A stretch of DNA of 64,000 bases from Pedobacter cryoconitis. GTDB lineage: Bacteria > Bacteroidota > Bacteroidia > Sphingobacteriales > Sphingobacteriaceae. The stretch covers positions 124,001 to 188,000 of the forward strand of contig NZ_JACHCC010000011.1 of the NCBI RefSeq assembly GCF_014207135.1. The letters run 5' to 3'. Shown piece by piece: positions 1-7,251 of the stretch (position 1 is the first letter of the stretch; every line of letters starts with the position of its first letter). A program made the position numbers and the translations under genes. The notes under the pieces were generated by a model. The model was not told the DNA's origin. It was given only the letters and a program-made list of their open reading frames with translations, and did no database searches.

Positions 1-315
1 CAGGCATTTATATTGGTGGACAAAAATGGGAAAACCGAAAAAATGGTAGGTGCGCTCAGAGATATTACCATCAGAAAGGATTACGAAAAACGATTATTAC
101 GAAAAAATAAAATGCTGAAAGAGATCGCATGGAATAATTCACATGAGATCCGCCGGCCTTTAAGTAATATATTAGGTTTAACAGAACTCATGAATGCAGA
201 CCCGGATACTCCCCCCTCACATGCTGAAATGCTGATGATGTTAAGTAAATCAGCTACAGAACTCGATGATATTATTATTAAAATAAACACATCCCTTAAA
301 GACATCAAATTTTAG
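1..315 (+). CDS. PAS/PAC domain protein with C-terminal DHp-like helix, no ATPase domain (5' partial)
   Basis: The reading frame is open to the first base, so the gene starts left of the window. The visible 100+ residues begin in the end of a PAS/PAC module (VGALRDITIRKDYEK), followed by a DHp-like helix with SHEIRRPLSNILGL, which resembles the H-box of HisKA sensor kinases. The protein stops about 65 residues later, with no N, G1 or G2 boxes and therefore no HATPase domain. PAS proteins ending in such a truncated DHp module are familiar in Bacteroidetes (recalled knowledge). They may act as dimerisation or phosphotransfer partners rather than autokinases. It ends convergently with the molybdopterin oxidoreductase gene, 19 bp away. 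Family assignment is good; the role is unknown. Confidence 0.75.
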   Translation, partial: QAFILVDKNGKTEKMVGALRDITIRKDYEKRLLRKNKMLKEIAWNNSHEIRRPLSNILGLTELMNADPDTPPSHAEMLMMLSKSATELDDIIIKINTSLKDIKF

Positions 316-334: not shown

Positions 335-1123
335 TTACAGACCAGAGTAATAATCATACCCCTGCTCGGCCCAGTAATCACGTGGACGCTGGTTACTGAA
401 ATTGATCATCCCAATTCTTTTCAGGTTTTTTATTCCATATTTAACAGGAATGATTAATCTTAAGGGTGCGCCATGTTCTTCAGTTATCGGCTTATCATTC
501 ATCTCATAAGCGAGTATAGTCTGAGGATGTAAAGCACTTTCCATATCCAGTCCTATATAATATTCTCCGTCCGGTGTTTCCATCCCGACATATCCCATCT
601 TAGCCTGGTCGTGTAATTGATAATAATCAATAAAATCAATAAACCTCAGACCCGCCCAATGCTGTATCTGGTCCCAACCTTCCACACATTTAAAATCATA
701 GACAATTTCAGTTTTCGGTAAGGCCTTCAGGTCTTCGATATTGATCTTCAACACCTCTCCTTTCTTTTTAACTAAGGATAACTGCCATCTGGATACATCA
801 AAACTCTCATCCGTTAATCCAATGTCACTATTTACTCTAACCACCCTGGCGGCTCTCTCTTTTGGATAGGTTTTGACCACATGGTCATTGCTAAAGATTC
901 TCCTGAAAAACAACTCAGTTTTATTCAGTGCCCTTCGCAATGGCTGACGTGCCCCGCCTGTAATTCCGGCCTTTTCTTCCGGCGAATTATAAAGCCATTT
1001 CCAGCCACCGAAAGCTGCCCCGCCAGCTACAAAAAAGGTAGCGAATGATATAAAATTACGCCGTTTGATTTTCTTCTCTATGCTCAGTTCAACTGGCTGA
1101 GGTTTATTTGCGGTCGTTTTCAT
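335..1123 (-). CDS. Molybdopterin-dependent oxidoreductase, MsrP/YedY-like
   Basis: 262 aa with a twin-arginine-type N-terminus (KRRNFIS followed by a hydrophobic stretch, residues 20-40), so it is probably exported folded with its cofactor. The sulfite-oxidase-type Moco domain follows. Cys146 in FKCVEGW is the expected molybdenum ligand, and EHGAPLRLIIPVKYG near the C-terminus is the conserved pterin-binding segment. CVEGW is closer to YedY/MsrP than to true sulfite oxidases. By family knowledge such enzymes reduce methionine sulfoxide or other S- and N-oxides in the periplasm. It is the last gene of a three-gene operon, overlapping the cytochrome b gene by 20 bp; that protein probably delivers its electrons. 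The physiological substrate is inferred, not shown. Confidence 0.85.
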   Translation of the reverse strand: MKTTANKPQPVELSIEKKIKRRNFISFATFFVAGGAAFGGWKWLYNSPEEKAGITGGARQPLRRALNKTELFFRRIFSNDHVVKTYPKERAARVVRVNSDIGLTDESFDVSRWQLSLVKKKGEVLKINIEDLKALPKTEIVYDFKCVEGWDQIQHWAGLRFIDFIDYYQLHDQAKMGYVGMETPDGEYYIGLDMESALHPQTILAYEMNDKPITEEHGAPLRLIIPVKYGIKNLKRIGMINFSNQRPRDYWAEQGYDYYSGL

Positions 1124-1868
1124 CTGATTTTTTTGTTTTATCAGTTACCTGAGGTTTCTTTACTATTTTCTTTGGCTTCGGCTGTACCTTTTTAATTGCA
1201 GGTACAGGCACAGGTTCTAATTCCTTCACTTCAAAACCAGAGATCACGGACCTGAAGTTATTCCACCCGGCAAGCACAACCTGCATCACATGGATCATAA
1301 AAAACAGGACATAACCAAGAGTCAGTACAAAATGAATAATCCTTGCAAAATGATAACCTCCACATATCCAGGTCAACCAGTATAACTGCACTGGTTTGTA
1401 GATAGCAAGACCAGTGATTACAGAACCAAAACCCATGATAATAATAGCAGTATAGGCAATCCGCTGAGCTGCATTATATTTTTTCTGCGGAGGACTGAAT
1501 TTCCTGATATGGAGATCATGTAAAAGTACCTGCCAGGCTTCTTTAAAAGAGTGGCGGTTGGGAACCAGCTGTCTCCATTCTCCAGAGATCAGTGTATACA
1601 ACAAGTAAAAGATTCCATTTAAGGTAAAAAACCACATAAACAAGAAATGGAAGGCCATTCCTTCTGCCAACCGGGCTGGGATATGCAGCAACTTATAGAA
1701 CCAGTCTGGAAAGAAATGAATAAAGGTATACCCAAATATCTCAATTTTATAGGCATCATTTGCCCAGTAAATTAACATTCCGCTCCAGATCATAACCAGG
1801 AGGATAGGAAAATTCACCCAATGAGTCCAGCGCATCGCTAAAGGATGCTTTTCATGAATCACTTTCAT
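1104..1868 (-). CDS. Cytochrome b561-type membrane protein (electron donor)
   Basis: 254 aa with about four membrane helices. Histidines sit at the usual b-heme positions of the Ni-hydrogenase/formate-dehydrogenase cytochrome b561 family: HPLAMRWTHW at the N-terminus, and ARIIHF and FMIHVMQ in the last helices. A Lys/Pro-rich cytoplasmic tail (KKVQPKPKKIVKKP) follows. It overlaps both neighbours (ATGA overlap with the DUF1223 gene, 20 bp with the Moco gene), indicating translational coupling. Its likely job is passing quinol electrons to the exported molybdoenzyme, as MsrQ does for MsrP, although it does not look like an MsrQ homologue. Confidence 0.85.
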   Translation of the reverse strand: MKVIHEKHPLAMRWTHWVNFPILLVMIWSGMLIYWANDAYKIEIFGYTFIHFFPDWFYKLLHIPARLAEGMAFHFLFMWFFTLNGIFYLLYTLISGEWRQLVPNRHSFKEAWQVLLHDLHIRKFSPPQKKYNAAQRIAYTAIIIMGFGSVITGLAIYKPVQLYWLTWICGGYHFARIIHFVLTLGYVLFFMIHVMQVVLAGWNNFRSVISGFEVKELEPVPVPAIKKVQPKPKKIVKKPQVTDKTKKSDENDRK

Positions 1869-2635
1869 TTGTATCTTGTTGCTGCAATAATTTCACCGTC
1901 AGTATCATGCTGTAAAAAGGCAATCAATCCATATTTTGCAGCATCCGTATGCTGTGGAATATCCAGACTGGCTGTCCCGCTGTTCTTACCGTTAAGAGGA
2001 ATCTGTTTGAGCTGACGTACTATTTGAATATGTGACAATAGATGACCACCGTTTTCTCCGCTTTTAACTCTCGTCTGTGCCGAATGCTGTACAAGAGCCA
2101 GCAGCAAATCCGTATGCCCGTCTGCTCCGTTTGCCTGGTAGTGTAACCTGAATTGTCTGCCACTTGTATCCACCTGATCCAGTATTAATTTTGCTGCAGA
2201 GATCTTTCGTAAACTGCTCTTAATCGCGTTTCGTAAAGTGGTTTCTTCCGATCCGACAAACTCCTGCTGTCCGTTCACCACTATCTGAGGTGTATATACA
2301 GATCTCAGGTTCAGCCAGCTGGCATATTGATTTTGTCTTTTGGAATAATCCGCATTACTATATACGTCTTTCCAGCCCAGACGGTTCCAGTAATCAACAT
2401 GAAAAGCTAAGATATAAACTGGCTGACCTGTCTCCTCCCGTTGTATTCTGGCGACCAGTTCATCGGCTGGAGGACAGCTTGAACAACCTTCAGAAGTAAA
2501 AAGTTCAATTAATGCAAATCCTTTATCATTATTCCCGACAGCTGTCTTGCGAAAACTGGCAATTGCAATTGCACCCGATAATAGTATAGCAGTACCCAGA
2601 CAGCCGACTATAAAAAATATTTTGATTACTTTCAT
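1865..2635 (-). CDS. DUF1223 family thioredoxin-like exported protein
   Basis: 256 aa. An N-terminal hydrophobic segment (residues 5-27) serves as signal or anchor. The DUF1223 core starts with FALIELFTSEGCSSCPPAD, where Cys51 and Cys54 form a CxxC redox motif in a thioredoxin-like fold. The family's biochemical role is not established; position suggests a periplasmic thiol redox function. It is the first gene of the operon with cytochrome b and the Moco oxidoreductase. On the minus strand it is preceded by an ECF-type promoter (TTGTAAGG, 15 bp, CGACAA) that is divergent from the sigma factor's own promoter, so it should be induced by that sigma factor. Confidence 0.85.
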   Translation of the reverse strand: MKVIKIFFIVGCLGTAILLSGAIAIASFRKTAVGNNDKGFALIELFTSEGCSSCPPADELVARIQREETGQPVYILAFHVDYWNRLGWKDVYSNADYSKRQNQYASWLNLRSVYTPQIVVNGQQEFVGSEETTLRNAIKSSLRKISAAKLILDQVDTSGRQFRLHYQANGADGHTDLLLALVQHSAQTRVKSGENGGHLLSHIQIVRQLKQIPLNGKNSGTASLDIPQHTDAAKYGLIAFLQHDTDGEIIAATRYK

Positions 2636-2651
2636 GATAAGATTTCCTTAT

Positions 2652-2680
2652 TTGTCGGCTTGTATAGTAAATCCTTACAA
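2652..2680 (-). promoter_or_regulatory. ECF sigma promoter for DUF1223-cytb-Moco operon
   Basis: On the minus strand, TTGTAAGG (2680-2673) is followed after exactly 15 bp by CGACAA (2657-2652), 17 bp before the ATG at 2635. The same two boxes with the same spacer precede the sigma gene and the Met-rich peptide gene. Assignment to the adjacent ECF sigma is an inference from repetition and synteny. Confidence 0.75.
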
Positions 2681-2703
2681 TAAATTTAAACAAATTGTAA
2701 GGA
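2672..2703. repeat. Inverted repeat formed by two back-to-back -35 boxes
   Basis: TCCTTACAAT (2672-2681) and ATTGTAAGGA (2694-2703) are a perfect 10-bp inverted repeat with a 12-bp AT-rich centre. Each arm is the -35 element of one of the divergent ECF promoters, so the symmetry comes from the divergent promoter arrangement. A dimeric repressor site remains an alternative. Confidence 0.8.
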
Positions 2704-2723
2704 ACAGTCTAATTGCCCGACTA
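2695..2723 (+). promoter_or_regulatory. Autoregulatory ECF sigma promoter
   Basis: TTGTAAGG (2695-2702), a 15-bp spacer, then CGACTA (2718-2723), 19 bp upstream of the ATG at 2743. Because a TTG at 2713 falls inside this promoter, the ATG at 2743 is the better start of the sigma gene. The match to the two other local copies implies autoregulation. Confidence 0.75.
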
Positions 2724-2742
2724 CTATAATTTATCATCTTCT

Positions 2743-3348
2743 ATGTCCAGTCAAAAACATACAGAATCTTCATCGTCCGAAACGCATACTATTGATCCGC
2801 ACCTATGGGTAACTCATCATGCAGACTACCTTTACAACTATGCAATTACAAGGATTAACGAAGAAGAGCAGGCAAGAGATCTTGTCCAGGAAACTTTTCT
2901 GGCAGCACTGGAAAGAATAGACCGCTTTGAAGGGAGAAGTACTGAGCGTACCTGGTTAACTGCTATTTTAAAAAACAAGATTATAGACATCTACCGCAAA
3001 AAGTCTTCTGGTCTGAAGAATATCACCATAGACAGCGGTGCAGAACAAAATGACCAGGATTTTTTCGATCCAGATGATGGTCACTGGAAGAAAGCACACA
3101 GGCCTCAGCCATTTGGAATAGAAGATACAACGGATGCTTTGAACGCTAAAGAATTCAATTCTATCTTGAAAAGATGTATGCAGAAACTTCCTGGGCTCTG
3201 GTTATCCGTTTTTACGATGAAACATATGGACGATGAGTCCACAGATTTTATTTGCAGCGAACTGAAAGTGACCCCTTCAAATTTCTGGGTAATTATCCAC
3301 CGGGCAAAACTAAACCTGAGAGCCTGTCTGCAAAAAAACTGGATTTAA
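2743..3348 (+). CDS. ECF-family RNA polymerase sigma factor
   Basis: 201 aa from the ATG at 2743. An in-frame TTG lies 10 codons upstream but would sit inside the promoter. Region 2 is recognisable (HADYLYNYAITRINEEEQARDLVQ, then ETFLAALERIDRFEG and TWLTAILKNKIIDIYRKK). After an acidic linker with FFDPDDGHWKK comes region 4 (LPGLWLSVFTMKHMDDESTDFICSELKVTPSNFWVIIHRAKLNLR). FDPDDGHW-type linkers are typical of one subgroup of ECF factors paired with small zinc-finger anti-sigmas (recalled). The anti-sigma candidate lies 10 bp downstream. The regulon probably includes both divergent arms. Confidence 0.92.
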   Translation: MSSQKHTESSSSETHTIDPHLWVTHHADYLYNYAITRINEEEQARDLVQETFLAALERIDRFEGRSTERTWLTAILKNKIIDIYRKKSSGLKNITIDSGAEQNDQDFFDPDDGHWKKAHRPQPFGIEDTTDALNAKEFNSILKRCMQKLPGLWLSVFTMKHMDDESTDFICSELKVTPSNFWVIIHRAKLNLRACLQKNWI

Positions 3349-3358
3349 AGAAACTGAT

Positions 3359-3634
3359 ATGAGCGCGCTAAAAAACATTATATATAACTGCAGGAAAGCT
3401 ACTTTTCTGATTGAAAAGAAACAGCTGTCCCCCCTTACCTTTCAAGAAAAAGTAGAATTAAGAATTCACCTGACTGGCTGTTCTTTTTGCAGGTTATTTC
3501 AAAAACAGAGCATCAGTATAAACCTGATGGTACATGAGCTTTTTCATACAGCAAAGCCTACAGAAAGAGGACTGGATGAGACCTATAAAAAAGAGTTACA
3601 GGAACGCATAGAAAATGAGTTGAATAAAAATTAG
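3359..3634 (+). CDS. Small zinc-finger (ZAS/zf-HC2-like) anti-sigma factor
   Basis: 91 aa, soluble, no membrane helix. It has the H-x3-C-x2-C signature of zinc-binding anti-sigma domains (His37, Cys41, Cys44 in HLTGCSFC), with a further Cys11. In ZAS proteins such as RsrA, oxidation of the zinc-bound thiols releases the sigma factor. By analogy this protein is a plausible direct sensor of an oxidant acting on thiols. It begins 10 bp after the sigma gene and is surely co-transcribed. The rest of the protein is poorly conserved, so the identification rests on motif and position. Confidence 0.75.
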   Translation: MSALKNIIYNCRKATFLIEKKQLSPLTFQEKVELRIHLTGCSFCRLFQKQSISINLMVHELFHTAKPTERGLDETYKKELQERIENELNKN

Positions 3635-3640
3635 AATTTA

Positions 3641-3669
3641 TTGTAAGGTCTGTCCATGGTCTGCGACTA
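3641..3669 (+). promoter_or_regulatory. ECF sigma promoter for the Met-rich peptide gene
   Basis: TTGTAAGG (3641-3648), 15-bp spacer, CGACTA (3664-3669), 29 bp before the ATG at 3699. It is identical in both boxes and spacing to the sigma gene's promoter. The peptide and probably the peroxiredoxin can thus be transcribed strongly on their own. Confidence 0.75.
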
Positions 3670-3698
3670 AGGGAGAAACATTCACAAAATTTAAAATC

Positions 3699-3962
3699 AT
3701 GAAAACTCAGAATCTAAGATCAAACCTAAAAAAAGGCATAATGGCCGCAGTCATCACCTTTTGTTTTGCAATCACTACTCAGACCAAAGCAGCTGAACAC
3801 CCATTACAAAAAGACACTACAAAAATGGCATCATCTAAAATGAGTAAAATGTCAAAAGGTAAAATGAGTTCAAAAAAGATGGATAAAATGGCCCCTTCTA
3901 AAATGTCAAAAAGCAAAATGAACACAAAAAAGGTGGATAAGATGGCACCTTCCAAAATGTAA
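3699..3962 (+). CDS. Exported Met/Lys-rich repeat peptide (MXKDX-like, MrpX-like)
   Basis: 87 aa. A Sec signal peptide (about residues 1-32, ending TQTKAA) precedes a 55-residue mature chain built of short repeats such as SKM, KKMDKMAPSKM and SKSKM. It contains ten methionines, every one preceded by lysine, no cysteine, and almost no hydrophobic residues besides Met, so it should be unfolded. Similar low-complexity exported peptides are named pentapeptide MXKDX repeat proteins. In Azospira the functionally analogous MrpX acts as a sacrificial periplasmic methionine sink for hypochlorite, regenerated by a YedY-type reductase. The same partners surround this gene, so that role is inferred. Metal binding by Met residues is the main alternative. 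Confidence 0.8.
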   Translation: MKTQNLRSNLKKGIMAAVITFCFAITTQTKAAEHPLQKDTTKMASSKMSKMSKGKMSSKKMDKMAPSKMSKSKMNTKKVDKMAPSKM

Positions 3963-3973
3963 GATATTCAACG

Positions 3974-4009
3974 AAATATCCTGGAGGCTCAGGTCTCCGG
4001 GATATTTTT
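3974..4009 (+). terminator. Hairpin terminator/attenuator after the Met-rich peptide gene
   Basis: AAATATCCTGGAG and CTCCGGGATATTT pair (one G-U) around an 8-nt loop, followed by a short T-run. It lies between the peptide stop and the peroxiredoxin ATG 13 bp further on, so it probably limits rather than abolishes read-through. Confidence 0.7.
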
Positions 4010-4021
4010 AAAACATAAATA

Positions 4022-4600
4022 ATGAAACAATTTGTACTCCTCATCACTACAATACTATTTACCCTCAGCCTGGCTGCACAAACCGGAAAAAAAACAGGTG
4101 ATAAAGCCCCTCAGTTTTCGGCCAGAGACAATGCAGGCAAAACTATTGATCTTAAACAATTACTGAAATCGCATAAATCTGTAGTTTTATTTTTTTACCG
4201 CGGACAGTGGTGTCCCTATTGCAATCTGCATATCAAACAATTACAGGACTCTCTTCAACTGCTTACGGCCAAAGGAGCGTATGTCATTGGTGTCACTCCC
4301 GAAACCGGAGAGAATATTACTAAAACTATTGAGAAAACCCATGCTTCCTTTTCTATCATACAAGACAAAGGGTATAAAATCATGACAGCCTATAATGTAA
4401 AATTTGTCATGGATGAGGGTTTAGTTACTAAATACAAAGGATATGGTGTAGATCTGAATAAAAACAATGGAAACTCAGATCATGTCCTACCCGTTCCGGC
4501 AACCTATATCATAGACCATACCGGAAAGATATCTTTTGTTCATTTCGATAAAGACTACAAAAAACGAGCAGCAGTATCCACTTTACTGAAACAGCTTTAA
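4022..4600 (+). CDS. Exported peroxiredoxin (AhpC/TSA-like)
   Basis: 192 aa. Signal peptide (residues 1-19, LFTLSLAAQ) followed by a thioredoxin-fold peroxiredoxin domain. The active-site region is FFYRGQWCPYCNLHIKQL, with Cys64 as probable peroxidatic Cys and Cys67 as a CxxC partner. The C-terminal part has the usual ATYIIDHTGKISFVHFD strand. It should reduce peroxides or act as a thiol oxidoreductase in the periplasm. It lies 59 bp after the Met-rich peptide gene behind a hairpin, so it may be partly driven by the same ECF promoter; no separate promoter was recognised. Confidence 0.85.
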   Translation: MKQFVLLITTILFTLSLAAQTGKKTGDKAPQFSARDNAGKTIDLKQLLKSHKSVVLFFYRGQWCPYCNLHIKQLQDSLQLLTAKGAYVIGVTPETGENITKTIEKTHASFSIIQDKGYKIMTAYNVKFVMDEGLVTKYKGYGVDLNKNNGNSDHVLPVPATYIIDHTGKISFVHFDKDYKKRAAVSTLLKQL

Positions 4601-4780: not shown

Positions 4781-5698
4781 TTAAGGCAGATCAAATCCGT
4801 ACTTCTTGTAAACAGCATTCGCTTCTGCACTAACCAGGAACTTCATAAAGTCCTTAGCTGCCTGTGGATGCGGTGCATTTTTCAGCTCCCCGGCAATATA
4901 TTGTGCATGAATATTTTCCTTTTCCGGGATTTCAATCATTTCGACAGGATGATTGATCATTTTCTGATAATAAGCTTCACTGTACCATACCGGAGCAGCG
5001 TCACTCTGATTATATAAAATCCGCATCGGTGACTGACGGTGATGGATTTGCGTAAGATAGGTAGACTGGTCTTTCACTTTGGTTTTCATTACCGCTGTCT
5101 TTAATTGTTCACCACCCGCCTTAACATAGGCTTCCTCAATACGTTTACCAATACCTTCGAAATCAGGGTTCGGCATACTTATCCTTAGATCTTTACTTCC
5201 CAAATCTTTTAACCCTTTAACTTTCTTCGGATTACCTTTCTGCACCAGGATCGCCAATTTGTTTCTTGCATATAAGGCCGTTTGACTGAACCATTCCGGT
5301 GTCTGGTCAATCCGGTTTTTACCGGCAGTGTAAACATCCGGTTTTAATGTGATCCTGAGATTTCCAATCACTATACTTCCTGTTTCAATCTGTCTGGCCA
5401 GTATGCCAGGAGGCAGAGTTTCAGCAAATACCCGCTGATATTGAGGATAAGCCTTTTTAAAAGCAGCAATCAGATCGTCAATGCACATGAACTGATTACC
5501 CGCAAAAAACACAACCAGCTGCGGATCATTAATATCCCCAAACAAATCCGGGACATTATCAACACCTGGCACTGTAAACTGCAATGCACTTTCAGGAGGA
5601 GTATTCCAGGGAGGATCAAAACGGTGTTCCTGAGCTATAGCTGCTTCAGAAAGACAAAACATCGCAGCAATACCAAAAATTATATAGTTTAATTTCAT
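4781..5698 (-). CDS. Periplasmic solute-binding protein (type 2, ModA/sulfate-binding-like), orphan
   Basis: 305 aa with a signal peptide (residues 1-22, ending AAIAQ). The core resembles periplasmic binding protein type 2 folds for oxyanions: LVVFFAGNQFMCIDDLIAAFKKAYP at the N-terminus, LAILVQKGNPKKVKGLKDL in the middle, then HPQAAKDFMKFLVSAEANAVYKKYGF at the C-terminus. No permease or ATPase gene is nearby, so it is unlikely to serve a normal ABC importer here. It is the third gene of an operon with an exported DsrE protein and a TsdA-like cytochrome. A role in binding a sulfur oxyanion or delivering metal oxyanion is conjecture. Confidence 0.7.
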   Translation of the reverse strand: MKLNYIIFGIAAMFCLSEAAIAQEHRFDPPWNTPPESALQFTVPGVDNVPDLFGDINDPQLVVFFAGNQFMCIDDLIAAFKKAYPQYQRVFAETLPPGILARQIETGSIVIGNLRITLKPDVYTAGKNRIDQTPEWFSQTALYARNKLAILVQKGNPKKVKGLKDLGSKDLRISMPNPDFEGIGKRIEEAYVKAGGEQLKTAVMKTKVKDQSTYLTQIHHRQSPMRILYNQSDAAPVWYSEAYYQKMINHPVEMIEIPEKENIHAQYIAGELKNAPHPQAAKDFMKFLVSAEANAVYKKYGFDLP

Positions 5699-5735
5699 CT
5701 GTTTATATTATTGTTTTTCGTCTTTTTATACTTTT

Positions 5736-6191
5736 TTAAGGATGTACAATTGCCCAGCCCTGCTGCTGAAGGATAATAATCTCTCCGTTACCACTGGGTG
5801 CATAATTGATAAAATCGTACAAAGTACTTTTTTCAATATGTCTTTCCTTCAGTGTGTTCTCGCATTGTACCAGTAAAACACCCCTGTCCTGCAATTCTTT
5901 TAATGTTTTCTCAAAAACTCCGTTTTTATCATAAACGGCGACCCCATCTCCAAAGGCAACCAATTCCAGCTCCAGTTTCCCCTTAAGGCGAGGGTCATCA
6001 AGCGCATTTTTCATATTCCTCAGTGTACCACCAATTTTCTTTTCATCACCGCTATTCAGCATGTAAACGGCCTTGTAATGTTTCAGGACAGCTTTTGCAC
6101 CGGTATATACTGCCGGTTTTGTCTGTGCAAAACTTGTTTTTACGCCAGCCATTACTACAAGCAGGCTGCAAATCAGGATCATCTTCTTCAT
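5736..6191 (-). CDS. Exported DsrE-family protein
   Basis: 151 aa. A signal peptide (residues 1-22, KTSFAQ) precedes a DsrE/DsrF-like domain (YKAVYMLNSGDEKKIGGTLRNMKNAL; LELVAFGDGVAVY; GVLLVQCENTL). Cys in VQCENTL occupies the position of the persulfide-carrying cysteine in the family. Most characterised DsrE proteins carry sulfur in the cytoplasm; this one should be periplasmic. It starts 4 bp after the TsdA-like cytochrome gene, which points to handling of sulfur intermediates outside the cytoplasm. The exact reaction is unknown. Confidence 0.8.
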   Translation of the reverse strand: MKKMILICSLLVVMAGVKTSFAQTKPAVYTGAKAVLKHYKAVYMLNSGDEKKIGGTLRNMKNALDDPRLKGKLELELVAFGDGVAVYDKNGVFEKTLKELQDRGVLLVQCENTLKERHIEKSTLYDFINYAPSGNGEIIILQQQGWAIVHP

Positions 6192-6195
6192 GTTT

Positions 6196-7251
6196 CTATT
6201 TTTTTTTCTTTGATTTATAATAGTCCGCTATGGGTTTAAACGGGCCATATTTATGTTGTTGTGCAATAAATTGATCACCATATGGCCCGAATGGTGCATC
6301 TATAGGTTTTTTAGACAGATCCGGATAATCTTTTTGCTGATCTTTATGTGGCCTGGGTTGTGAATTGACAAAAGCTGCCAGGTCCCATGCTTCCTCATCA
6401 CTTAGCTGCGGATCTTCATAAGTCGCTCCGTATGGCATATTGTTTTTTACAAAACCAGAAAAATTAGCGAGTCTGTACATTCCTGCAGCATCATTATAAC
6501 TATGTTTCCCCCACAACGGTGGATAGGTATAACTTTTCTGATCCGCAGCACGCAAACCGTCTCCGTTCTTACCATGACAGGAAACACATTTTGAAGCATA
6601 TAAGATCTTCCCCTTAGCAGGATCAGCCGGTCTGTCCAGATACTTTAATTTCCCGCAGCCCGTTCCAAAAACCGGGTTCCCTTTTTTCAACCCCGAACCC
6701 AGCCATTTTAAATAAGCCAGCATAGCCTGTACTTCTTTCCCCGAAGGATCAGGAGCTTTCCCAGCCAGGCTCCGTTCAAAACACTCAGCAATCCTGCTTG
6801 AGGCAGGTACAACAGTACCCGATCTGTTACTTTTTTTCGGATAACTGGCAAAGAAAACTGAATAATTATTCCCGAAAGTTTTTGTTCCTCCCTGAAGATG
6901 ACAATTCTGACAATTCATCCCGTTAGAAATGGTCGCAACTGAGCCATTTGGCCCAAAATATCTGGCTGTATTGACAATCAGCTCTTTTCCATAACGGATT
7001 GCCTCTCCCTCTTTTCCTGCCGGTATAGTATTTTCTTCAGGAGCTGCCCAATTCTCCTGAGCGGAGGATTTCGTAGCAGATGAAATAACTGTATGAGTCT
7101 CCTCTTGCCGCTTTGGTTCTGTCTCTTCCCTCCATATAAAAGTACTGATCAGTATCGCGCTACAAACCATAAAAAGTAAGGAAGCCACAACTACCGATCT
7201 TGCCGTATAAACCAGTGCTTTTTCTGTTTCATTAAGGTTATGCTCTGACAT
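6196..7251 (-). CDS. Membrane-anchored diheme c-type cytochrome, TsdA-like
   Basis: 351 aa. One N-terminal membrane helix (about residues 15-40) anchors a periplasmic domain with two CxxCH sites, CQNCH (114-118) and CVSCH (222-226). Between them, RSGTVVPASSRIAECFERSLAGK strongly resembles thiosulfate dehydrogenase TsdA and its relatives, where an additional Cys is a heme ligand; Cys157 in ECFERS is the candidate. The family converts thiosulfate to tetrathionate or the reverse. It is the first gene of the operon with DsrE and the solute-binding protein. Whether it is a dehydrogenase, a tetrathionate reductase or another cytochrome cannot be told from sequence alone. Confidence 0.8.
   Translation of the reverse strand: MSEHNLNETEKALVYTARSVVVASLLFMVCSAILISTFIWREETEPKRQEETHTVISSATKSSAQENWAAPEENTIPAGKEGEAIRYGKELIVNTARYFGPNGSVATISNGMNCQNCHLQGGTKTFGNNYSVFFASYPKKSNRSGTVVPASSRIAECFERSLAGKAPDPSGKEVQAMLAYLKWLGSGLKKGNPVFGTGCGKLKYLDRPADPAKGKILYASKCVSCHGKNGDGLRAADQKSYTYPPLWGKHSYNDAAGMYRLANFSGFVKNNMPYGATYEDPQLSDEEAWDLAAFVNSQPRPHKDQQKDYPDLSKKPIDAPFGPYGDQFIAQQHKYGPFKPIADYYKSKKKK

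Follow-up and report, generated by a model that had tools for sequence, protein, structure and literature searches.

A conserved gene set around a Lys-Met-rich exported peptide and an MsrP-like molybdoenzyme shares one promoter motif in Pedobacter cryoconitis and other Bacteroidota

We analysed a 64,000-nucleotide (nt) stretch of the Pedobacter cryoconitis genome (contig NZ_JACHCC010000011.1, positions 124,001 to 188,000; hereafter the window), in which the locus at 335 to 4600 encodes a Lys-Met-rich exported peptide, an MsrP/YedY-like molybdoenzyme and an extracytoplasmic function (ECF) sigma factor with a zinc anti-sigma factor. A preliminary description had listed a molybdoenzyme, a cytochrome b, a DUF1223 protein, a peroxiredoxin, an ECF sigma and a zinc anti-sigma; open reading frames (ORFs), Pfam and NCBIfam placed all of them where it had put them. 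The features are as follows.

335..1123, minus strand: MsrP/YedY-like molybdenum-cofactor oxidoreductase (PF00174, 2.4e-27)
1104..1868, minus strand: cytochrome b561-type membrane subunit (PF01292, 5.3e-15), probable electron donor
1865..2635, minus strand: DUF1223 thioredoxin-like protein (PF06764, 1.5e-58)
2654..2680, minus strand: ECF promoter motif TTGTAAGG-N15-CGAC, exact, 18 nt upstream of the DUF1223-cytochrome b-MsrP unit
2695..2721, plus strand: ECF promoter motif upstream of the sigma gene, exact; autoregulation predicted
2743..3348, plus strand: ECF sigma factor (region 2, 1.4e-15; TIGR02943-like at 156.6 bits, cut-off 162.2)
3359..3634, plus strand: zinc anti-sigma factor, soluble by eye (46.1 bits with NF052368, cut-off 50; C11-X25-H37-X3-C41-X2-C44)
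3641..3667, plus strand: ECF promoter motif upstream of the peptide gene, exact
3699..3962, plus strand: Lys-Met-rich exported peptide (87-residue precursor, about 55 residues mature, 10 Met)
4022..4600, plus strand: peroxiredoxin/TlpA-like secreted thiol protein (AhpC/TSA-Redoxin; PF00578, 3e-28) with GQWCPYC

The minus-strand unit runs in the order DUF1223, cytochrome b, MsrP-like molybdoenzyme. The plus strand carries two units, ECF sigma with anti-sigma and then the peptide with the peroxiredoxin-like gene, which begins 59 nt after the peptide gene and has no motif of its own. The start of the ECF gene was refined to the ATG at 2743; the alternative TTG at 2713 falls within the promoter motif. 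A molybdenum-cofactor gene (MoaA family domain) was found in this genome. The DUF1223 protein has a signal-like N-terminus and a CSSC in EGCSSCPPADE, and its family has been assigned to the thioredoxin clan (PMC3091736; statements from the cited papers refer to excerpts of them).

When the upstream regions were compared side by side, TTGTAAGG-N15-CGAC was found without mismatch upstream of all three transcription units. With a spacer of 16 nt none of the three sites was found; the correct spacer is 15 nt. The preliminary description had named no common promoter, so that its interpretation gains a regulon by this addition. In the 6.0-Mb genome the exact motif occurs four times: three sites lie at this locus within 1 kb, and the fourth is 52 nt upstream of the ATG of a DUF417 gene. 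Matches with one mismatch in the same genome (L005-L010) were dropped because the reversed pattern gave 41 matches against 10; the six examined were mostly intragenic.

For the comparison with relatives we used the loci of the best 80 of 563 MsrP relatives (1.17 Mb in total, 26 of the loci being shorter than 16 kb) and a second set of 40 loci, which overlaps with the first. The 80-locus set contains 115 exact sites (114 distinct), with none in five first-order Markov simulations, and the remaining spacings between 10 and 21, eleven in all, yielded a single site between them. The distinct sites lie upstream of the genes for DUF1223 (37), the peptide (32), the ECF sigma (25), MsrB (7), the cytochrome (2) and the peroxiredoxin-like protein (2), and nine of the 114 have no gene assignment. 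Sites were present at corresponding genes in both sets, though some loci are without them. Conservation extends outside the search pattern, with [AT]TT after the -35 element and T, A and A after CGAC (82, 97 and 96%), giving the consensus GTAAGG[AT]TT-N12-CGACTAA. The four Chitinophaga and two Dyadobacter loci examined have the promoters, exact or with one mismatch, and two Chitinophaga sites show CGTCTA, the Neisseria form of the -10 element; neither the motif nor an ECF gene was found at three other Dyadobacter loci (L105, L143 and L161, from one genome). Several of the additional motif sites picked individually (e.g. L076, L080) have no sensible downstream gene and look like chance.

Across whole genomes, at least two exact sites were found in 66 of the 82 close-MsrP genomes, in 2 of 9 with a more divergent MsrP and in 22 of 209 without MsrP (close against none, Fisher 9e-31, a nominal P since the genomes are related), and the reversed pattern reached the same number in 22 of 82, 1 of 9 and 29 of 209, respectively. 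In total 142 genomes have a site; the group without MsrP includes genomes that have only paralogs of about 30% identity, and G131, whose match to MsrP is partial (65% over 103 residues).

Gene content was scored by BLAST with the window proteins and one MsrB. This neighbourhood comparison, which the preliminary description had proposed, found that the core gene set recurs: all six core genes stand together in 34 of the 80 loci, in 28 of the 54 loci over 16 kb and in 16 of the 40-locus set. Taken singly, the cytochrome was found in 78 of the 80 loci, DUF1223 in 63, ECF with anti-sigma in 47, a Met-rich ORF in 42, the peroxiredoxin in 28, MsrB in 18 and DUF417 in 2. The corresponding counts are 53, 45, 37, 36, 25, 13 and 2 for the loci over 16 kb; the 40-locus set has the cytochrome in 39, DUF1223 in 23, ECF with anti-sigma in 23, the Met-rich ORF in 19, MsrB in 8 and DUF417 in 1. 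The carriers include Pedobacter and Mucilaginibacter, both of the order Sphingobacteriales, Chitinophaga (Chitinophagales) and Dyadobacter (Cytophagales), and thus represent three orders of Bacteroidota.

Two further genes join the set in relatives. A lipoprotein-like MsrB (SelR, 1.5e-35 for one) is preceded by the exact motif at seven distinct sites, and msrB follows msrP immediately, in the same orientation, in 9 of the 80 loci (seven genomes, gaps of 1-97 nt), namely two of Chitinophaga, five of Dyadobacter (three from one genome) and two of Chitinophagaceae metagenome origin. Upstream of msrB, about 10 nt separate the end of the motif from the first ATG (L036, 4873-4910; also L038, L055 and L058), and the mRNA may therefore be nearly leaderless.

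The second is the gene behind the fourth site of P. cryoconitis, which encodes a DUF417 protein (PF04224, 125 bits against a gathering score of 27). DUF417 is present in 94 of 300 genomes, in a long type (open frames of about 190-240 residues, 160-238 bits) and a lower-scoring short type. We chose genes by family and not by motif, using 40 of 42 full-length short-type rows; G000 and G208, with sites known beforehand, and six partial rows were excluded. The motif with at most one mismatch was found on the right strand within 600 nt of 23 of the 40, nine times without any mismatch; its distance from where the domain match begins is at most 105 nt in 20 cases and about 485 nt in three. The reversed pattern gave 0 of 40. 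Some of these genomes are close relatives, and the counts are not independent events. The long type gave 0 of 30 loci, with no exact site within 1500 nt and no one-mismatch site within 600 nt. RclC and RcrB of the DUF417 family protect Escherichia coli against hypothiocyanous acid (HOSCN) and hypochlorous acid (HOCl) by a mechanism described as unknown (PMC12096828, PMC9600549).

Genes for DsbD_N-like proteins of 150 residues (L071-L074, L087 and L088; six genomes of genus group g3, the identity being confirmed by Pfam for one of the six) stand behind TTGTAAGG-N15-CGACTATA with a gap of about 156-176 nt. We did not count them as regulon members because of the differing -10 element CGACTATA and the long gap; these sites perhaps reflect a second ECF or a long leader. 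A different group was observed in G208 (L089, 2348-13730), where two ECF genes and a gene for a thioredoxin-like protein (both identified by eye) cluster with those for one zinc anti-sigma, DoxX, a full-length DsbD, a peroxiredoxin and DUF417 around five exact motifs. Here the same kind of switch would govern another regulon.

The regulator was then considered from its zinc site and its promoter. The anti-sigma has no Pfam match; its 91 residues include no hydrophobic segment by eye, as a transmembrane NrsF-type protein would have, and its ligands C11, H37, C41 and C44, invariant in 11 of 11 aligned homologues, fit the zinc anti-sigma (ZAS) pattern C/H-X23-26-H-X3-C-X2-C as defined in PMC7907618. 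Streptomyces RsrA has its residues at the identical numbers C11, H37, C41 and C44, to which residues of Neisseria MseR correspond (PMC2893595). Neisseria sigma-E controls msrA/msrB from promoters of the form GTMAGBWTT-N12/13-CGTCTAAH (PMC2893595), and our consensus agrees at all nine -35 positions and at six of the seven core -10 positions, the final H being here most often G. The TGTAACC/GCGAA promoters of the two bcr sites given for BcrS (PMC8315932) are of another type than TTGTAAGG[AT]TT-N12-CGACTAA. HOCl and H2O2 induce the ZAS-type pair RpoE2/HrsE of Haemophilus, which has MsrAB under its control (PMC7907618). From the promoter and the zinc-site numbering, the switch is better read as working like Neisseria sigma-E/MseR and Haemophilus RpoE2/HrsE, not like SigF/NrsF. 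The preliminary description had set it beside the Azospira SigF/NrsF pair, and a reading as an altered form of that pair is corrected here; its contrast with Azospira in the anti-sigma and the cytochrome was right, given the soluble ZAS ligands and the PF01292 domain.

Among the putative effectors, the molybdoenzyme has an N-terminal RRNFISF helix, which resembles a twin-arginine translocation signal by eye. All 11 aligned homologues of the cytochrome b share six invariant His, and cytochrome b561 (PF01292) is its sole domain at E up to 0.01, so that it differs from MsrQ (YedZ) with its ferric-reductase-like membrane domain (PF01794). No report of MsrP paired with a cytochrome b561 was found in the open-licence literature searched. 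The peptide retains about 55 residues after its signal-like N-terminus (by eye), and direct counting confirmed the earlier statement that its ten Met all stand in Lys-Met pairs (shuffling P = 0.0005, the floor of the test). In 43 peptides from the loci, 439 of 470 Met are in Lys-Met pairs and 40 end in Lys-Met. The Met-rich ORF in L143, which has many Met outside such pairs, is probably unrelated and is still counted in the locus and peptide totals. The pentapeptide MXKDX family TIGR02953 (cut-off 41 bits) does not match the window peptide, and four of eight peptides tested match it at 22-30 bits, a weak resemblance below the cut-off.

We read the locus as a small oxidant-response regulon for the cell envelope, with a Met sink, recharge by MsrP and a ZAS/ECF switch, and put the probability of this reading at about 0.72. 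In the resting cell, the ECF sigma would be held by the soluble zinc anti-sigma. Reactive chlorine or a similar oxidant, presumably HOCl, would oxidise the anti-sigma Cys residues (C11 with C41/C44, by analogy with RsrA), so that zinc is lost and sigma is freed. The freed sigma would then transcribe its own gene, the DUF1223-cytochrome b-MsrP unit, the peptide-peroxiredoxin unit and the DUF417/RclC-type gene. The promoter sites for this are present in the DNA; that they are used we infer. The exported Lys-Met peptide might be oxidised in place of envelope proteins, and MsrP might reduce the methionine sulfoxides with quinol electrons supplied through the b561-type cytochrome, thereby recharging the shield, while DUF1223 and the peroxiredoxin-like protein may deal with thiols and peroxides. 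The idea of a Met sink, a reductase and a thiol sensor in one locus is supported by comparison, through the shared promoter and through MsrB and DUF417, which join it in relatives.

Several observations weigh against this reading. A Met-rich ORF was not found, by the cut-off used, in 10 of the 47 loci with an ECF, and at 5 of 42 loci it occurs without an ECF in the examined stretch; no ECF was seen in 33 of the 80 loci, in part of them through contig ends. Six MsrP-cytochrome b pairs (L065-L070, 51-59% identity) stand alone, without ECF, peptide or motif, which indicates that the parts are separable; in these pairs the enzyme is perhaps unregulated. In G208 the switch accompanies DoxX, DsbD and DUF417, with no MsrP match at E 1e-10, and the count of exact sites falls below two in 16 of the 82 close-MsrP genomes. 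Of the short DUF417 genes, 17 of 40 have no motif within 600 nt, though three of these (G013, G065 and G073) lie directly behind msrP, the copy in G013 containing a stop. The motif is absent from all three MsrB genes and both DsbD_N genes of P. cryoconitis itself, and neither is therefore claimed as a regulon member here. The molybdoenzyme scores 88.3 bits with the NCBIfam MsrP model PRK05363, under the cut-off of 207, and by fold YedY comes first but nearly tied with sulfite oxidases/dehydrogenases (Foldseek 1.1e-11 for YedY against 4.7e-11 for chicken sulfite oxidase, structural Z 17.3 against 16.4; model pLDDT, a per-residue confidence score, 85.9, replacing an earlier model at 62.9). From the related systems, a Haemophilus rpoE2 mutant had wild-type oxidant resistance and no extra HOCl sensitivity in vitro (PMC7907618), and the oxidants tried on Neisseria failed to induce its sigma-E (PMC2893595).

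It is possible, at less than even odds, that the regulon answers general peroxide/disulfide stress like SigR/RsrA, with the peptide as one of several antioxidants and chlorine not the main signal. The RsrA numbering of the anti-sigma Cys/His residues, the peroxiredoxin-like and thioredoxin-like genes of the locus and the G208 group, which carries ECF, anti-sigma, DoxX, DsbD, peroxiredoxin and DUF417 at five exact motifs without an MsrP match, would all suit such a response. The combination of Met sink, MsrP, MsrB and DUF417, however, points to Met-oxidising chlorine/thiocyanate species more than to H2O2, as does the standing of RclC/RcrB as HOSCN/HOCl factors (PMC12096828, PMC9600549).

It is improbable that the molybdoenzyme acts on another sulfur compound (sulfite or free sulfoxides), the peptide being neither substrate nor partner. 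The sub-threshold MsrP score, the near tie by fold and the six pairs without a peptide agree with that idea, as does a row of genes next door for a SoxA/TsdA-like cytochrome c, a DsrE protein and a ModA-like binding protein (window 4781-7251, minus strand). By profile against PDB, on the other hand, YedY (1xdq/1xdy) is clearly best with 6.5e-22, followed by a sulfite oxidase at 1.3e-11. The molybdenum-ligand Cys146, invariant in 12 and in 57 sequences, lies within CVEGW, close to CVEAW of YedY, whereas the conserved Cys of animal sulfite oxidase lies in CAGNRR. In addition, msrB directly follows msrP at the nine loci described above, and only two of the 80 relatives (L094 and L095) have the cytochrome c, DsrE and ModA-like genes at this locus. 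Sulfite as substrate, named earlier as a result that would count against a Met-recycling system, was hence weakened by sequence and not by fold.

Met-rich exported peptides can bind Cu(I). Buffering of periplasmic copper, or of another soft metal, is nevertheless a very unlikely role for the peptide. Bufferins are a precedent as copper-chelating peptides (PMC12452194), and three peptides gave weak, chance-level matches to copper oxidases (E 0.16-2.3). Against this, Lys adjoining Met is very frequent, the 43 peptides have few Cys (9) and His (26), some of them from one probable non-member, the recognised genes behind the motif, which cover part of the sites, include no copper gene, and the peptide is linked to MsrP, MsrB and DUF417.

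The SoxA/TsdA-like cytochrome, DsrE, ModA-like and CLC neighbours were rejected as parts of the system on the same count of 2 of 80, and the cytochrome c-DsrE-ModA-like row is probably a separate sulfur-related cluster. On the other side of the locus, a short PAS/histidine-kinase-like ORF (by eye; window 13-315, plus strand) has a phospho-acceptor-like helix, NNSHEIRRPLSNILG, and ends without an ATPase domain.

If the reading of an envelope oxidant-response regulon is true, defence by sacrificial Met with recharge extends from Proteobacteria to Bacteroidota with another regulator and another electron donor, which suggests convergent or modular assembly; the system was likely assembled independently of that of Azospira. 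Peroxidases of competitors and hosts would expose bacteria of soil and plants to such oxidants. The reading also gives testable roles to DUF1223 and DUF417/RclC, families of unknown mechanism, and the promoter motif allows the regulon to be listed in other genomes of the group. The Lys preceding each Met may trap HOCl as a chloramine and then transfer the oxidation. A bolder version, which we offer tentatively and consider doubtful as a whole, would make the peptide a two-step trap (Lys chloramine to adjacent Met), the enzyme a new b561-fed MsrP subfamily, the system a widespread Bacteroidota defence with a sigma-E/MseR-type switch, and DUF417 its standing partner. No Bacteroidota version of a Met-rich-peptide system was found in the open-licence literature searched, and the terms 'bacteroid' and 'mrpx' are absent from the review PMC7464077.

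Among known systems, Streptomyces SigR/RsrA differs from the Pedobacter system in promoter and regulon. It shares the ZAS redox switch with identical Cys/His numbering (PMC2893595). Neisseria sigma-E/MseR and Haemophilus RpoE2/HrsE resemble it in the small soluble ZAS encoded behind the ECF gene, in Msr targets and, for Neisseria, in a nearly equal promoter; their targets include msrAB, a DMT (drug/metabolite) transporter, a DoxX-like protein and MtsZ, and a Met-rich peptide and MsrP are not among the targets named in the excerpts (PMC2893595, PMC7907618). Like E. coli RclABC and RcrARB, the Pedobacter set has a DUF417 membrane protein within an oxidant response (PMC12096828, PMC9600549), which in E. 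coli is controlled by RclR or RcrR and in Pedobacter, as its upstream sequence suggests, by an ECF-type promoter; family-model scores of the short DUF417 type are below those of the long type. In gene content the set resembles Azospira MrpX-YedYZ (SigF/NrsF) and Brucella BcrXQP (BcrS/AbcS), in which an ECF/anti-sigma pair adjoins a Met-rich peptide, a YedY-type enzyme and a membrane partner, BcrXQP being HOCl-induced and protective (PMC8315932, PMC4623255). As in these Met-sink systems, the Met-rich exported peptide of Pedobacter adjoins a YedY-type molybdoenzyme with a cytochrome b. Brucella has an anti-sigma with membrane-spanning helices (TMH1 to TMH6), a pair named ECF16 and TGTAACC/GCGAA promoters (PMC8315932). 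Azospira and Brucella have a YedZ/MsrQ partner and an MXKDX peptide, whereas Pedobacter has a PF01292 cytochrome, a Lys-Met peptide, a soluble zinc anti-sigma and GTAAGG/CGACTAA promoters, together with DUF1223, peroxiredoxin and DUF417. The Pedobacter locus is a conserved gene set under one promoter that would work like the Met-sink systems of Azospira and Brucella and is not a member of them.

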